Source: Rhodospirillales bacterium (lineage in GTDB: Bacteria > Pseudomonadota > Alphaproteobacteria > BOG-932 > Roseiterribacteraceae). Taken from it: a stretch of 32,930 bases of DNA. Where the stretch lies: positions 1 to 32,930 of the forward strand of contig PLTD01000188.1 of assembly GCA_003165335.1 (NCBI GenBank), in the 5' to 3' direction. The notes under the pieces were generated by a model. That model searched no databases. It saw only the letters and a list, made by a program, of their open reading frames with translations, and had not been told where the DNA came from. Both the position numbers and the translations under genes were made by a program. Positions 13,847 through 20,757 of this stretch are shown here, in pieces (position 1 is the stretch's first letter; each line of letters begins with the position of its first letter).

Positions 13847-14752
13847 ATGGCGCGCAAATGGGCAATCCAGGATATTCCATCACAAAAGGGCAAGTTGGCG
13901 GTCGTAACCGGGGCCAATCGCGGTTTGGGACTGGAAATCGTAAAGGGTTTGGCCAGCGCAGGCGCGCATATCGTCATGGCAGTTCGCGATCGCGCTAAGG
14001 CGGCGGCAGCCATCGCGACGGTTGTACGTGAGTTTCCGAGCGCCGAGGTCGAGGCGATGACCCTGGACCAGGCTGACATTGCCTCGATTCGCAGCTTCTC
14101 GGAAGAATTCCACAAGCGCTTCAACCATCTCGACTTGTTGATAAACAACGCGTCCGCAATCCTGGTTCATCAGTCCAAAACGCAAGACGGGTTTGAAAAG
14201 CATTTCGGTGTCAATCATCTTGGAAGCTTCGCGCTCACCGGACTGCTGCTCGACAAGCTAACCTCGGCAAAGGGCGCTCGCATCGTCAACACCTCCAGTA
14301 CCGCCCACCGGCTGGTAAAGAGCATCGACCTGGATGATCTGCAGTTCCAGCACACGGCTTATAAGCCTATGGAAGCCTATGGGAGAAGCAAGCTCGCGGC
14401 ATTGCTGTTCAATGCCGAGCTTGACCGGCGGCTCAGAAAAGCGGGTTTCGATACAAAAGCCGTGGCTGCACACCCGGGCTATTCAAATACAAACCCCGAT
14501 AAGGGTGGCGTGCTCATGCGGGTTGCAACCTCGATTTTTGCACAGCCGGCAGCCATGGGCGCCTTGCCCCAGCTATACGCAGCAACGGCACCCGGCGTCA
14601 GCGGCGGGGACTACATTGGACCAGGCGGCATTGCTGAAATGCGCGGGTATCCCGCAAAAGTCGGCTGCACCCTTCAAGCAAAAGATCAGACGGTTGCAGC
14701 CCGCCTTTGGGCCATATCGGAGTCACTGACAGGCGTCAGCTTCCTCGATTAA
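13847..14752 (+). CDS. Short-chain dehydrogenase/reductase
   Basis: A 301-residue SDR oxidoreductase. The cofactor loop TGANRGLG starts at 21, NNA at 100-102, the catalytic serine is S150 (NTSS), and Y178-x-x-x-K182 (YGRSK) completes the active site. The overall pattern (LDLLINNA, FGVNHLGSFALTGLLL, AHPGYSNTN) is that of retinol-dehydrogenase/protochlorophyllide-reductase-like SDRs, so NADP is the likely cofactor; the substrate is not known. The ATG at 13847 has AGGGG upstream and is preferred to the ATG at 13835. Its stop overlaps the livF stop by 3 bp on the opposite strand, leaving no room for a terminator. Confidence 0.88.
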   Translation: MARKWAIQDIPSQKGKLAVVTGANRGLGLEIVKGLASAGAHIVMAVRDRAKAAAAIATVVREFPSAEVEAMTLDQADIASIRSFSEEFHKRFNHLDLLINNASAILVHQSKTQDGFEKHFGVNHLGSFALTGLLLDKLTSAKGARIVNTSSTAHRLVKSIDLDDLQFQHTAYKPMEAYGRSKLAALLFNAELDRRLRKAGFDTKAVAAHPGYSNTNPDKGGVLMRVATSIFAQPAAMGALPQLYAATAPGVSGGDYIGPGGIAEMRGYPAKVGCTLQAKDQTVAARLWAISESLTGVSFLD

Positions 14753-15462
14753 GTGGGCAGTCCGCCCAAGTAGGCCGCCTGGATGTCGGCGTTTGCTGCC
14801 AAATCCTTCGCTTGCCCCTGCAACACAATACGACCGGTCGCCAGAACATAGCCGCGATGGGCGAGCGCAAGCGCATGATGGACGTTTTGTTCGACCAGCA
14901 AAATTGCGGTTCCGCGTTCCTGATTGATGCTGAGTATCGCGGCAAATATCTGCTTAACGATCAGGGGCGCCAGACCGAGGGACGGTTCATCCAAAAGAAG
15001 AAGGTCTGGTTCGGCCATCAGTGCTCTAGCGATGGCGAGCATCTGCTGTTCTCCACCGGAAAGTGTGCCGCCGCGTTGGTCTAGTCTTTCCCCGAGTCTC
15101 GGGAAAAGCGCCAAAACCGAATCGATATTGGCTTTGAAATTGGATGGGGAGGCGAGCCTGGCTCCCATCATAAGGTTCTCAAGCACGCTCATTCGCGCAA
15201 AGATCCGCCGGCCCTCCGGTGCATGAGCAACGCCCAGAGCCGCGATCCGATGCGTCGGCAGATGCGTGATATCTTGCCCCTTGTACCGCACCTCGCCGGA
15301 CAAGGCGGGCGGGCGGCCGCAAATTGTCATCAGCAATGTCGTCTTGCCGGCACCATTCGATCCGACAAGCGCCACGATTTCTCCCGCACCGACGCTTAGA
15401 TCGACGTCTTCCAGTGCGCGGACAGCACCATAGGCGGCGGAAATCCCCTTGAGCGCCAACAT
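14749..15462 (-). CDS. livF: LivF-type ABC transporter ATPase
   Basis: A 237-residue ATP-binding subunit. The P-loop GSNGAGKT (34-41), signature LSGGEQQ (134-140) and Walker B LLLLDEP (D158, E159) are intact, with the LivF-typical APEGRRIF segment. Its ATG overlaps the livG stop by one base (TGATG), so the two are translationally coupled and likely form the heterodimeric motor of the importer. It is the last gene of the livHMGF operon. Confidence 0.93.
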   Translation of the reverse strand: MLALKGISAAYGAVRALEDVDLSVGAGEIVALVGSNGAGKTTLLMTICGRPPALSGEVRYKGQDITHLPTHRIAALGVAHAPEGRRIFARMSVLENLMMGARLASPSNFKANIDSVLALFPRLGERLDQRGGTLSGGEQQMLAIARALMAEPDLLLLDEPSLGLAPLIVKQIFAAILSINQERGTAILLVEQNVHHALALAHRGYVLATGRIVLQGQAKDLAANADIQAAYLGGLPT

Positions 15463-16262
15463 CAGGCAGCCTCACCGTCCGGCTCGCCCAGATAGGCAGC
15501 AATTACGGCCTTGTCGCCGCGAATTGATGCCGGTGATCCTTCGGCGATTTTGCGTCCGTAATCGAGCACAACAATATGGTCGGAAATCTCCATAACCAGA
15601 CTCATGTCGTGCTCGATCAAAAGGACCGCTAAACCCAACTCCTGGGAAACCGCGCGCACTAGGGAGGCCAGTTCTATAGTTTCACGCGAATTGAGGCCGG
15701 CGGCAGGTTCGTCCAGGCATAGAAGACGCGGGCCGCTGCAAATGGCGCGTGCAATCTCAAGTCGGCGCTGCTGACCATAGGACAGGAATTGGGCAGGTTC
15801 ATTGGCGCGGCTGAGCAGCCCGACACGATCAAGCCAATAGCGCGCTTTATCCAGAGCCTTCTTTTCCGCGCGCCGGTAAGACGGCAAGCCCAATATTCCC
15901 GCGATTGAAAATGCCGAGGCGCGCATCAATTCTGCATGCTGCGCAACGAGAAGATTTTCCAGCACCGTCATATTGGCAAACAGGCGAATATTCTGGAAGG
16001 TCCGCGCAATGCCCAGCTGTGCGATACAATGGCCGGGCTGACCTGAAAGCTCGGTTAAGCGCCCACTGCAATCGAGGCGTATGCTTCCACTCCTCGGCCT
16101 GTAGAATCCCGTAACGCAATTGAACAGCGTGGTCTTGCCCGCACCGTTCGGACCGATCAGGGCCGTTATAGCTTCTGGCCGCACATCAAACGAAACGGAG
16201 TCGATTGCCACCAAGCCGCCGAAGCGCATGGTGAGATCTTTGATAGAGAGTAGTGCCGTCAC
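15462..16262 (-). CDS. livG: LivG-type ABC transporter ATPase
   Basis: A 266-residue ATPase partner of LivF. The P-loop GPNGAGKT (37-44), signature LSYGQQRRLEIARA (160-173), Walker B LLCLDEP (D184, E185) and switch H218 are present, plus the LivG-typical GIARTFQNIRLF. The frame is open to 16547, but the protein starts at the GTG at 16262, which overlaps the livM stop as GTGA. The longer reading has low-quality Cys/Arg-rich sequence and is a shadow of livM. Confidence 0.92.
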   Translation of the reverse strand: MTALLSIKDLTMRFGGLVAIDSVSFDVRPEAITALIGPNGAGKTTLFNCVTGFYRPRSGSIRLDCSGRLTELSGQPGHCIAQLGIARTFQNIRLFANMTVLENLLVAQHAELMRASAFSIAGILGLPSYRRAEKKALDKARYWLDRVGLLSRANEPAQFLSYGQQRRLEIARAICSGPRLLCLDEPAAGLNSRETIELASLVRAVSQELGLAVLLIEHDMSLVMEISDHIVVLDYGRKIAEGSPASIRGDKAVIAAYLGEPDGEAA

Positions 16263-17635
16263 AGAAGAGTCGCGGTTGGTCGACGCGTCGAAATGAGACC
16301 CCGCGGGCGGAAGCGCATGATCGCGATCATGGCGATGCCGAACACTAGCATTCGGTATTCTTCCAGTGGGCGAAACAACTCCGAAAGGCCGACATAAAGG
16401 ACGGCGGCAAAAACCACACCGAGTTGGGATCCCATTCCGCCCAGAACAACAATTGCAGTTACCGCCACGGACTCCATAAACCCGAAGCTCTCCGGGCTCA
16501 CGAAGCCTTGCCGTGCAGCAAAGAACGCACCGCCCACACCTCCCCATGCTGCGCCTATGGCAAAAGCCGTCAGCTTCACTCGTCTGCGGTCTATCCCTAG
16601 CGCCTGGGCGGCAATCTCATCTTCACGTAGCGCTTCCCAAGCTCGCCCTATCGGAAGTCGCCGAATTCGAAGCGTGAAGCCATTGACCAGAAGCGCGGCT
16701 CCTAGAACAAGATAATAGAGGAAGATAATTCGGTGAATCGGATTATAGGGAATACCGAACAGGGCGTTGAAGGCTGTATGGCCCGGCGCAGGACTAGCGG
16801 TAAAATCCGCAATCCCAAAAAAGCTCGGGCGGGGAGCCCCCGCGATTCCTTGTGAGCCGTTGGTCAGGGATCGCCAGTTGTTCGCGACAATCCGGATAAT
16901 TTCCCCGAAACCAAGCGTCACGATGGCAAAATAGTCTCCTCTCAGACGCAGTACCGGAAATCCAAGCAGCAAACCCGCCGCCGAAGCAAAAGCCGCCGCC
17001 AGCGGGAGGCAAGCCCAGAACGAAAAGCCGTACGTGCTGCCCAGAATCGCAGCCGTGTAGGCACCGATTGCAAAGAAGGCCGCATATCCCAGGTCGAGCA
17101 GGCCCGCGAGACCGGTTACAATATTTAATCCCCATCCAAGAAGCACGTAGGTCAAAATCATGACGCCGGTATCGAGGACGCCCCGGTTGGCGAAGGGCAA
17201 TAGAGGGAGGAGCGCGGCAAATGCAATCATAGCCCATGGCGCATAGCGCCCCGCCAGCCCGACCGCGCCAGACATCGACCCAAAAGGGCGCGATCCAAGC
17301 AGCAAAAACGCGGCCCGCATTGCGATCAGAGCCGCTCCTCCGACGGCCACAACCTCCAGGAACTGACTGGGCCAAGGAATAATTAGCGAGCCTATTGCGA
17401 AGGCCGCCATAAAGAAGAGCACAGAGCGAACTGCGCCGCCCGAAATCAGGGAAAGCGCCAGCCGCCCAACGAACACGAGGATGATCATAGCGACGAGTTG
17501 GGGCCAGCGGTTCGCAAGTCCCTCGCCACCACTTTGGTCGACCAGACGAAAGCCTACCAGGGGTAAAGCGAGCAGACCGGCAATGAGCGCGGCGATCGCG
17601 CCGTCCCTGGCTGCCTTGAAGGGTAGCTGCGCCAC
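16259..17635 (-). CDS. livM: LivM-type ABC permease
   Basis: A 458-residue permease. The LivM core begins near residue 155 (GVMILTYVLLGWGLNIVTGLAG-like segment with LDLGYAAFFAIGAY) and includes the ATPase-contact loop IGRAWEALREDEIAAQALGID. The N-terminal ~150 residues add several hydrophobic segments, a long form also known in other LivM proteins. It starts 3 bp after the livH stop and overlaps livG by 4 bp. Confidence 0.92.
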   Translation of the reverse strand: MAQLPFKAARDGAIAALIAGLLALPLVGFRLVDQSGGEGLANRWPQLVAMIILVFVGRLALSLISGGAVRSVLFFMAAFAIGSLIIPWPSQFLEVVAVGGAALIAMRAAFLLLGSRPFGSMSGAVGLAGRYAPWAMIAFAALLPLLPFANRGVLDTGVMILTYVLLGWGLNIVTGLAGLLDLGYAAFFAIGAYTAAILGSTYGFSFWACLPLAAAFASAAGLLLGFPVLRLRGDYFAIVTLGFGEIIRIVANNWRSLTNGSQGIAGAPRPSFFGIADFTASPAPGHTAFNALFGIPYNPIHRIIFLYYLVLGAALLVNGFTLRIRRLPIGRAWEALREDEIAAQALGIDRRRVKLTAFAIGAAWGGVGGAFFAARQGFVSPESFGFMESVAVTAIVVLGGMGSQLGVVFAAVLYVGLSELFRPLEEYRMLVFGIAMIAIMRFRPRGLISTRRPTATLL

Positions 17636-17638
17636 GGC

Positions 17639-18556
17639 CTAGACCTTCTCGACTTCGGGCCGTCCCATCAGGCCGCTGGGCCGGAAAATCAGCACCAGCA
17701 CCAGAATCGCATAAGCTGCGACATCCTTATAAGCAGCATCGGCGTATGCAGACCAAAAGGACTCTACCAGTCCCAGCACCAACCCGCCCAGAAGCGCACC
17801 TGGCAAAGAACCGACGCCGCCGAGAACCGCCGCTGTGAATGCCTTGAGCCCGGCCAGGAAGCCTATGAAAAAATCGATCACACCATAATAAAGTACGACC
17901 ATAACCCCGGCGACCGCCGCCAGAGCAGCCCCAATGATGAATGTTACCGAAATCGTACGATCTACATCGACTCCGCAAAGCGCCGCCATGAGCGGATCGG
18001 CGGCAGCCGCACGCTGCGCTCGGCCGAGTTCCGTTCGGTTGATGATAAGTGTCAGGCCCGCCATAAGGGCGAGGGTCAGTAGAAAAACGACGATCTGAAA
18101 ATTGCTGATTCCGACCGTAAAGCCGTCGTCGCCGCGCATCAGTGTAAATCCGCCGGATATCAGCGGGGGCAGCGTCTTAACCCGTCCACCTTGTGTCAAC
18201 TGAACATATTGCTGAAGAAAGATAGACAGGCCGATCGCGGAAATAAGAGGCGCCAAGCGGGGTGCGCCGCGCAGAGGGCGATAGATCAACCGCTCGATTG
18301 TCCAGCCGTAGAGGCCAGCAATAACCATGGCGACTAGGATCGCGAGTATCAGCAGAATTGGAACGGATGCGATGCCGGCCGACATCAAAGCCAATATCGT
18401 GATCAGCCCAACGAAGGCACCTATCATGTAGATCTCGCCATGGGCAAAATTGATCATGCCAATGATGCCATAGACCATGGTGTAGCCGATGGCGATCAGA
18501 CCATAGATGGAGCCGAGCGTCAGGCCGTTGATCAGTTGCTGGACAAAATACGCCAT
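17639..18556 (-). CDS. livH: LivH-type ABC permease
   Basis: A 305-residue permease, first gene of the operon. The start LINGLTLGSIYGLIAIGYTMVYG and MINFAHGEIYMIGAF are hallmark LivH sequences, and GRAQRAAAADPLMAALCGVD is the loop that contacts the ATPase. With LivM it forms the membrane channel for branched-chain amino acids or related solutes (amides and urea use the same family). The ribosome-binding site is weak. The promoter should lie in the 535-bp gap shared with ornithine decarboxylase. Confidence 0.92.
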   Translation of the reverse strand: MAYFVQQLINGLTLGSIYGLIAIGYTMVYGIIGMINFAHGEIYMIGAFVGLITILALMSAGIASVPILLILAILVAMVIAGLYGWTIERLIYRPLRGAPRLAPLISAIGLSIFLQQYVQLTQGGRVKTLPPLISGGFTLMRGDDGFTVGISNFQIVVFLLTLALMAGLTLIINRTELGRAQRAAAADPLMAALCGVDVDRTISVTFIIGAALAAVAGVMVVLYYGVIDFFIGFLAGLKAFTAAVLGGVGSLPGALLGGLVLGLVESFWSAYADAAYKDVAAYAILVLVLIFRPSGLMGRPEVEKV

Positions 18557-18875
18557 CTGAAACCGGTGGTGGGAAAGGCATCACGGTGCCCGATACGATC
18601 GGGCTCTGCAACAGTCACCGCGAATCCATGCAAGCCCTTGAGGCGTCGAGACGAAACGCGATAAAAACCTGCGCATATTCCCTATGCAAAAATGTCGGGG
18701 CTCGCAGAGCGTTTTCCCCTTTTCATCGAAATCGGATGGGCCTATATGCCCCTCCACTCGCACGCGCACGTGCCCCTGGCCCTGGTCACTTAGAGTTTCG
18801 ACCTGGGGTTTATGCAACGACGTAACGCGTATCTTCTGACCGTCCCTTAAGCAAGGCGGCACGTTGGAGGTTACG
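18557..18875. other. Upstream half of the livH / ornithine decarboxylase intergenic region
   Basis: No convincing protein gene: open frames of 74-124 codons on either strand lack ribosome-binding sites and motifs. GCATA-TTCCC-TATGC (18673-18687) is a dyad about 120 bp before livH that may be an operator. This part likely holds the livH promoter and the promoter of the decarboxylase leader. Confidence 0.4.
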
Positions 18876-19092
18876 ATGTTGGATGTTGTTGTCCGCAGGC
18901 AAAAGCCTGCGATTGTCCGAAATGACATATCTCTTAGTAGTCCCACCGGGTCCAAACCGGTGAAATGGCCACGTTGGCCCTCGCGCAGAAAACTGCGCTC
19001 TCCTCGCCGCGGCTAATTAGGCCGTTCTTTCACAAAATATTTCCGGCTCTTGAGAGCTTGCTCGCCTCATTTGGGGTGATCAGGGGGGAACA
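18862..19092 (+). promoter_or_regulatory. Structured leader of ornithine decarboxylase (speF-type candidate)
   Basis: Four perfect stem-loops follow one another: CGCAGGC/GCCTGCG (18894-18911, loop AAAA), CACCGG/CCGGTG (18944-18962), GGCCA/TGGCC (18967-18979) and GCGCAG/CTGCGC (18983-18998, loop AAAA). CGGC/GCCG (19010-19024) then flanks the leader-ORF stop and is followed by TTCTTT, a weak terminator-like arrangement. GCTCT/AGAGC follows further down. Such density is not expected by chance. Polyamine or ornithine control of the gene behind it is the likely purpose. Confidence 0.55.
18876..19016 (+). CDS. 46-codon leader ORF upstream of ornithine decarboxylase
   Basis: A short ORF with an excellent ribosome-binding site (GGAGG, 5 bp before the ATG) ends 76 bp before the decarboxylase start. 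The peptide begins MLDVVVRRQKPAIVRNDI and ends in a basic, Trp- and Pro-containing tail (KWPRWPSRRKLRSPRRG). Four perfect hairpins lie inside it. In enterobacteria the decarboxylase gene speF is controlled by a translated leader peptide that senses ornithine, and in alphaproteobacteria a structured speF leader RNA has been described. This ORF is therefore a candidate regulatory peptide. I do not recognise its sequence, and translation is unproven. Confidence 0.55.
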   Translation: MLDVVVRRQKPAIVRNDISLSSPTGSKPVKWPRWPSRRKLRSPRRG

Positions 19093-20220
19093 ATGACTCA
19101 CAAAATCGCACAATTTTTGGAAGACCGACGACCGGCAACACCGTGCCTCGTGTTCGATCTGGACGTAGTCGAAGAAAATTACCACGACATCCACAATGCG
19201 ATGCCGGACGCGCTGATCTATTACGCGGTAAAGGCAAATCCCGCCCCGCAGATACTCGATCGGCTGGCCCGTTTGGGCTCACGCTTTGATACTGCAAGTG
19301 TTGCTGAAATCCGCATGGCGCTGTCGGCGGGAGCCAAGCCCGAGCACATCTCTTTCGGCAATACCATTAAGAAGCAGGCCGATATTGCGACGGCTTATGC
19401 TCTGGGTGTCCGGCTATATGCCTTTGATAGCGAGGCGGAGTTGAACAAGCTCGCCGATGCCGCCCCGGGGTCGCAAGTTTTCTGCCGAATTCTAACGTCG
19501 GGTGTTGGCGCAGACTGGCCCTTGTCACGCAAGTTCGGCTGCGATGTCGAGATGGCGGAATCGCTCCTCAAGGCCGCGCCGGCAAAAGGCCTCACTCCGG
19601 TCGGCGTATCGTTCCATGTCGGCTCACAGCAACGTGACCCTGAGCAGTGGGACTGCGCGTTGGCCGAAGCTGCCGGCCTGTTCCGCCGGCTGGAGGCTGA
19701 CGGAATCTACCTGACGCTCGTCAACTTGGGCGGCGGTTTTCCGACGAAATATCGCCGTGACGTCCCAACCGCTGCCGCCTATGGCTTCGCGATCCGCGAG
19801 GCTTTGGCGCGCCATTTCGGAAACCGTTTGCCCGAAACGATCATTGAGCCTGGGCGCGGCATGGTCGGCAACGCCGGCGTCATACAGACCGAGGTGGTTT
19901 TGATATCGCGCAAGTCAGCCAACGACAATCGCCGCTGGGTATTCTTGGATATCGGCAAGTTCGGGGGGCTGGCCGAAACGATGGACGAAGCAATCCAGTA
20001 TCCGATCACGTCGGACCGAAAGGGGCCTACGGAGGCTGTAATCCTGGCTGGCCCGACCTGTGACAGTGCCGACGTTCTGTATGAAAAGGCCGACTATCAG
20101 TTGCCGCTATCGCTGCAGATCGGCGACAAGCTGGAGATTAAAGCCACCGGAGCCTACACCACGACCTATTCTGCGGTGGCATTCAATGGTTTCCAGCCCC
20201 TGGAAGCCTATTACATCTAG
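19093..20220 (+). CDS. Ornithine/lysine decarboxylase, alanine-racemase fold
   Basis: A 375-residue PLP enzyme of the eukaryotic-type ODC family, which makes putrescine from ornithine; some bacterial members also accept lysine. K47 (YYAVKANP) binds PLP, H175 (FHVGSQ) stacks on the ring, GGGF (213-216) and EPGRG (252-256) hold the phosphate, and C323-D324 (GPTCDSAD) come from the partner subunit. All key residues are intact and length is normal for the short bacterial form. The start has AGGGGGGA upstream. It lies behind a structured leader with a small ORF. Confidence 0.93.
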   Translation: MTHKIAQFLEDRRPATPCLVFDLDVVEENYHDIHNAMPDALIYYAVKANPAPQILDRLARLGSRFDTASVAEIRMALSAGAKPEHISFGNTIKKQADIATAYALGVRLYAFDSEAELNKLADAAPGSQVFCRILTSGVGADWPLSRKFGCDVEMAESLLKAAPAKGLTPVGVSFHVGSQQRDPEQWDCALAEAAGLFRRLEADGIYLTLVNLGGGFPTKYRRDVPTAAAYGFAIREALARHFGNRLPETIIEPGRGMVGNAGVIQTEVVLISRKSANDNRRWVFLDIGKFGGLAETMDEAIQYPITSDRKGPTEAVILAGPTCDSADVLYEKADYQLPLSLQIGDKLEIKATGAYTTTYSAVAFNGFQPLEAYYI

Positions 20221-20262: not shown

Positions 20263-20757
20263 CTAGCCGAGAAGTTTTTCGATCGCGCTGGTAAAGCGCG
20301 ACGAGCCCGGAGCCGTGATCGACGAAAACCAATCGATAAACTGGCCGTCAGGTCCGATCAGATATTTGTAGAAATTCCAGTGCGGCTTCGCAAAAAAGCC
20401 GCCCTTCTCCCCGAACCATCGAAACAGCGGATGGGCCTCAGCCCCCGTTACATGGACTTTCTCCGTCAAGGGAAAATCAACTCCGTAACGGACCTCACAA
20501 AAGCTCTGGATTTCGCTAGCACTACCAGGCTCCTGGCCGGCGAAATCGTTCGAAGGAACCCCCAGAACGACCAGCCCCTTGTCGCGCTTAGCCTGCCACA
20601 AAGCTTCGAGCCCCTTATATTGGGGGGTGAATCCGCACTTAGACGCCGTATTGACGATCAACATCGGCTTCCCGGCGAATTGAGCCAAGGGTAAGGGCTT
20701 GCCTTCGAGCGATTTGAAGGTGAACGCATGCGCAGAATTTGGCAGTGTCTCGGTCAT
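20263..20757 (-). CDS. Glutathione/thioredoxin peroxidase (cysteine GPx)
   Basis: A 164-residue cytoplasmic peroxidase that reduces hydroperoxides. The catalytic tetrad is present: C41 in NTASKCGFTPQY (cysteine, not selenocysteine), Q75 in PSNDFAGQEPG, and W127-N128 in WNFYKYL. C87 is the likely resolving cysteine, as in thioredoxin-dependent bacterial and plant forms. AGGGGGA precedes the ATG. The DUF1489 gene lies 59 bp upstream on the same strand. Confidence 0.93.
   Translation of the reverse strand: MTETLPNSAHAFTFKSLEGKPLPLAQFAGKPMLIVNTASKCGFTPQYKGLEALWQAKRDKGLVVLGVPSNDFAGQEPGSASEIQSFCEVRYGVDFPLTEKVHVTGAEAHPLFRWFGEKGGFFAKPHWNFYKYLIGPDGQFIDWFSSITAPGSSRFTSAIEKLLG

Follow-up and report, generated by a model that had tools for sequence, protein, structure and literature searches.

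The speF RNA motif (RF00518) was described by Corbino et al. in 2005, and it bound none of the compounds ornithine, lysine, diaminopimelate, putrescine, cadaverine, and spermidine (PMC1273637). The odc1 leader (uORF-25-1) has two UUG start codons two nucleotides apart at the start of the ornithine decarboxylase (ODC) gene and encodes a fixed 11-amino-acid peptide (PMC8632094); in the literature that we searched, nothing besides odc1 was found on alphaproteobacterial ODC leader peptides. ORF34/SpeFL, the leader of gammaproteobacterial speF (DUF2618, PF10940), is a functional analogue (PMC6386406). The leader analyzed here lies in a 32,930-nucleotide stretch of DNA from a Rhodospirillales bacterium, referred to as the window, and all features are on the plus strand unless noted otherwise. 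Like odc1, it is an alphaproteobacterial ODC leader with a ribosome-binding site in a hairpin and a conserved uORF, but its ORF starts with ATG and has mostly 28 to 59 codons, and the ODC ATG follows 68 to 143 nucleotides further on. Membership in odc1 was ruled out for the window leader, which has neither paired UUG starts nor an 11-amino-acid uORF at the ODC start. The leader family is apparently undescribed so far, and no description of it was found in Rfam 15 or in the literature searched, which was thin on subscription journals.

The leader and its distribution

The original prediction of a 46-codon ORF preceded by GGAGG and located in front of an ODC gene proved correct. The ORF (46 codons plus TAA; MLDVVVRRQKPAIVRNDISLSSPTGSKPVKWPRWPSRRKLRSPRRG) occupies positions 18876 to 19016, and its Shine-Dalgarno (SD) sequence GGAGG (18866 to 18870) lies 5 nucleotides upstream of the ATG and was invariant in 35 aligned sequences. 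The stop codon TAA (19014 to 19016) is separated by 76 nucleotides from the ATG (19093) of the ODC-type pyridoxal phosphate decarboxylase (19093 to 20220; Orn_Arg_deC_N/Orn_DAP_Arg_deC; 375 amino acids), whose ribosome-binding site, GGGGGGA, forms with the ATG the stretch from 19083 to 19095. A possible -10 element, CTATAT (18742 to 18747), aligned with CTATRT at the equivalent place in Azospirillum leaders and would put the transcription start at about 18755 to 18760; a sigma-70 consensus scan of the leader region found no promoter, and a terminator scan of the leader found no intrinsic terminator. The 46-amino-acid peptide matched no Pfam family at an E value of ≤0.001. Two neighbors are on the minus strand: an ABC transporter operon for branched-chain amino acids (LivF/G/M/H-like; 14749 to 18556), which diverges from the ODC leader and shares the intergenic region with it, and a glutathione-peroxidase-like gene (20263 to 20757), which is convergent to the ODC gene.

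Scanning 84,980 named genomes with a 24-base start-codon motif (GGCGGCNNNTTGGAGGNTAYGATG) gave 57 matches, namely 54 alphaproteobacterial ODC leaders and 3 chance sites inside Firmicutes genes. The leaders came from Azospirillum, Niveispirillum, Nitrospirillum, Skermanella, Arenibaculum, Aerophototrophica, Oleisolibacter, the TMPK1 genome of the window's family, and related metagenome-assembled genomes, and five of them were on the same contigs as loci L002 to L006. ODC was directly downstream in 53 of the 54; the last stretch ends early, and its full contig is that of L002, in which the ODC gene is present. A short ORF was opened in all 54, with 28 to 53 codons in the complete ones, and the conserved AVKAN codons of ODC lay 304 to 437 nucleotides from the leader ATG. 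We also built a covariance model, R1, of the 5' part of the leader from 35 leaders. It matched in 16 of 372 genomes of the class, at one site each and always before an ODC-type decarboxylase, 15 of which belonged to our earlier homologue set while the last was another such decarboxylase. A search of PLSDB plasmids with an Azospirillum leader peptide gave no match. Several lineages (L014, L169, L173, L018, and L176) were fused, with no stop codon between the leader ORF and ODC, which form one continuous frame. The fused ORF forms an N-terminal extension of the enzyme, which in L014 and L169 starts with an Azospirillum-like TRLRN element. Other ODC homologues, about 66 to 73% identical to that of the window (L123 to L125, L128, L129, and L131 to L139), had neither the leader nor the ar45-like blocks described below, and several of this group were in genomes with a second ODC gene.

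The window matched R1 with 118.5 bits at 18806 to 18925, a conserved 5' RNA domain that forms a long bulged hairpin with the leader ribosome-binding site in its 3' arm; the conserved element begins about 60 to 110 nucleotides upstream of 18862, where the original prediction had it start. In this hairpin GCAACG pairs with UGUUGU (codons 3 to 5), and the leader SD and AUG fall within the 3' arm. The pairs of the domain were intact in 98.9% of cells over 32 distinct sequences, most of them being invariant or varying on one side, so that covariation support there is weak. Hairpin P2 (18894 to 18911; CGCAGGC/GCCTGCG), over codons 7 to 12, did covary, with changes on both sides in 4 of 7 pairs in alignment A1.

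The four perfect stem-loops predicted within the ORF, and the fifth followed by TTCTTT, were all present. Downstream of P2, hairpin 2 (18944 to 18962; CACCGG/CCGGTG) was kept in L002 and L003, as was hairpin 3 (18967 to 18979; GGCCA/TGGCC) with G-U pairs, and hairpin 4 (18983 to 18998; GCGCAG/CTGCGC) was GCGCAA/TTGCGC in L003, a compensatory change. The fifth (19010 to 19024; CGGC/GCCG) encloses the stop codon and reads CGGCTAATTAGGCCG, CGGCTGAATCAGCCG, and CGGCTAATAGCCG in three congeners; stop codons in or adjoining stems were found in the window's genus and in Azospirillum. The fold of the 311-nucleotide leader had a z-score of -4.07 against dinucleotide shuffles, none of 100 shuffles being as good. 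The ORF also folded better than synonymous-codon shuffles (z-scores of -2.5 in the window and -2.2 and -2.1 in two congeners), and the hairpins therefore exceed a mere by-product of the peptide. This excess was inconsistent in the leader family beyond the window's genus; the density of ORF hairpins is a genuine additional trait of that genus.

Selection on the reading frame

Judged by comparison of the aligned leaders, the ORF is under selection as a reading frame. The frame was kept in 54 leaders. When eight pairs of close relatives were pooled, the pN/pS ratio came to 0.57 for the ORF's own frame (Fisher P = 0.009), whereas the two shifted frames gave 1.43 and 0.99. Near the end of the ORF, AGTAT occurred in 47 of 55 leaders, without exception in frame and with eight different spacings to the ATG. 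In the wider class, all 12 copies of [T/A]CNAGTAT that were found behind an upstream-block anchor followed by an SD-ATG were in frame and had no stop in between; 2 of the 12 were from Azospirillaceae. In all, start codon and C-terminal motif were separated by 13 different spacings, each a multiple of three, which implies at least 12 length changes that preserved the frame. If changes were free, this would have a probability of about 2e-6, a figure to be taken as a guide since the loci are related. The gaps between the leader stop codon and ODC took 29 values, divided 11/11/7 over the three frames. The selection on the frame is moderate, and the middle of the peptide is largely free.

Two parts of the peptide stood out. 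The element TRLR(N) at codons 12 to 16 was kept with synonymous changes (CGT/AGG/CGA for Arg and CTC/CTT/CTG for Leu). At the C terminus, many leaders had [S/T]-S-[I/M] followed by 0 to 8 residues and the stop codon (for example, QSSIGGLSA, TSI, SSI, SSMRAPD, QSSIG, LSSMCSRQ, and LSSICASC). The codon of the first Ser/Thr varied (TCG, TCC, TCA, or ACC), while the second Ser was encoded by AGT wherever the strict motif was present (e.g., L062, L059, L171, and L008). AGT made up 16 of 1,028 Ser codons (1.6%) in the ODC genes, and its fixation despite this rarity means that the motif is in part under constraint at the RNA level; no RNA pairing partner for AGTAT was seen by eye. The free first codon and the fixed AGT together point to a joint peptide and RNA constraint. 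Lineages without the motif include Skermanella and the family to which the window belongs. In the window's genus the peptide ends with KPV[KR]WPRWP[SM]R[RK]KLR..RRG, and the basic, Trp/Pro-rich end, to which the original prediction had drawn attention as suited to stalling, was confined to that genus. Broken frames or a lack of conservation in orthologous leaders would have counted against a translated, regulated leader, and neither was seen. Both the stems and the frame were retained, and the comparison thus supports that part of the prediction.

A probable translated attenuator and its alternatives

On balance, we regard the leader as probably a cis-acting translated attenuator of ODC. The 5' RNA hairpin would hold the ribosome-binding site of the short leader ORF, and ribosomes would translate the ORF toward a stop codon that sits, at the 3' end, within or beside a further stem. 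The position of the ribosome, or a nascent-peptide pause responding to ornithine or a polyamine, would then set the folding or the access of Rho ahead of ODC and in this way the ODC output. Linkage in cis to ODC, selection on the frame, and conserved hairpins are supported by the comparative data; from these we infer the regulatory role, the pausing of the ribosome by the peptide, the signal (ornithine or a polyamine), and the output step. The ORF is under selection, as leader-peptide attenuators call for, and the frame-locked C-terminal motif favors a role for the peptide; ribosome stalling on it is plausible. Against the attenuator are the absence of the C-terminal motif in some lineages, the fixed AGT codon, the fused ORFs, and the inconsistent release of the ODC ribosome-binding site by a ribosome modelled at the stop codon. 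Regarding the output step, the ratio of C to G between the stop codon and the SD was up to 2.3 in Azospirillaceae versus 1.0 in the window, so that Rho-dependent control of ODC may be possible but receives no support from the composition of the window.

The main alternative, which we consider possible although rather doubtful, is that the 5' RNA domain is itself the sensor, as an aptamer or a protein site, and gates the leader ribosome-binding site, with the ORF merely coupling translation and the peptide being irrelevant. Between the window and other families this domain was 80 to 85% identical, compared with 67 to 70% for the ODC genes and about 30% for the remaining leader, and the leader SD and AUG were paired in 35 sequences. 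Pairing with GCAACGACG also keeps Val codons 4 and 5 near-fixed as GTT, a codon that accounts for 4% of Val in these ODCs. In the fused lineages, moreover, the leader start is the start of ODC itself, which favors a role for the 5' domain. However, a sensor of this kind leaves the frame-locked C-terminal motif and the synonymous variation in TRLR unexplained, and outside Azospirillaceae and their relatives the 5' domain has diverged, yet the ORF persists.

Two further mechanisms are improbable. Attenuation through Arg codons, as proposed for Salmonella ORF34, would sense arginine by slow decoding, and the window peptide is indeed rich in Arg. Across the family, however, the number of Arg residues in a peptide varied between about 10 and 1 without a common run, and Arg-codon sensing was rejected since Arg content was not conserved. 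In a classical translational attenuator, equally hard to credit, CUCCUC near the end of the ORF would pair with the SD of ODC, which a stalled ribosome would free. CUCCUC and GGGGGG were paired in the consensus fold of three congeners, but no such complement was identified in Azospirillaceae, and a ribosome modelled at the stop codon gave no consistent exposure of the ODC ribosome-binding site: the release was small in L001 and L002 and of opposite sign in L003, and its mean over 27 leaders was zero. Release from an anti-SD by a ribosome at the stop codon was therefore rejected.

Relation to speF RNA, ar45, and SpeFL

The window leader sits upstream of a COG0019-type ODC gene in an alphaproteobacterium, which is the context of speF RNA, and the original prediction had identified it tentatively with that motif. 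This identity did not hold up: a covariance search with RF00518 gave no match in the window at an E value of ≤10 and none in the whole genome, and in an Rfam scan of both, tRNA alone reached the gathering score. As the leader is not RF00518, it also gives no direct evidence for the suggested peptide-based action of speF RNA. RF00518 itself was present in 11 of 289 sampled genomes of the class. A hidden ORF beginning at its conserved TTG was considered and rejected, as the frame differed between members.

Both elements share the ODC family downstream, occurrence in Alphaproteobacteria, and an ar45-like segment at the 5' side. In the window this segment (GCGCACGTGCC ... GCAACGACG) lies at 18764 to 18822, and its two blocks are those found at either end of Rfam ar45 (RF02347) in L009 and L011. 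The end blocks CACGTGCC and CAACGACG are common to ar45 and the present leaders, whereas the window and Azospirillaceae have no T-run after the segment; the window had no covariance match to RF02347. Among 47 loci of the class with upstream blocks CACGTGCC and A[AT]CGACG, about 33 were followed by an SD-ATG ORF 59 to 79 nucleotides later, and about 10 of the 13 without one were RF00518 or RF00518-like. The RF00518 loci examined have another downstream module without an SD-ATG ORF, and R1 found no match in them. The translated leader and RF00518 thus appear to be two alternative modules that follow a common ar45-like segment. That the leader is a diverged, purely structural member of the speF RNA family, as its place, its enzyme, and the common upstream blocks might suggest, is highly improbable given the missing RF00518 match, the lack of R1 matches at RF00518 loci, and the selection on the frame. 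One genome carries two ODC genes, L190 (G228:C51) and L150 (G228:C74), one with a translated leader and one with RF00518.

The leader family offers a testable alternative for the control of alphaproteobacterial ODC, in culturable Azospirillum species. More tentatively, a class-wide arrest peptide, with T-R-L-R near the N terminus and [S/T]-S(AGU)-[I/M] at the C terminus, may sense ornithine or a polyamine inside the ribosome and control the ODC of this family, which we take to have the alanine-racemase fold. SpeFL acts within the ribosome as an ornithine sensor, and the gammaproteobacterial ODC that it controls and the alphaproteobacterial type have different folds. Like ORF34/SpeFL, the leader described here is a short ORF before an ODC gene, and the two may be compared in how they work, but SpeFL is gammaproteobacterial and the window peptide has no similarity to it (no Pfam/DUF2618 match). 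If such an arrest peptide exists, it would be independent of SpeFL and represent convergent ribosome-based sensing of one pathway, and bacterial evolution would have arrived at ribosomal sensing of the ODC pathway on two or more occasions.
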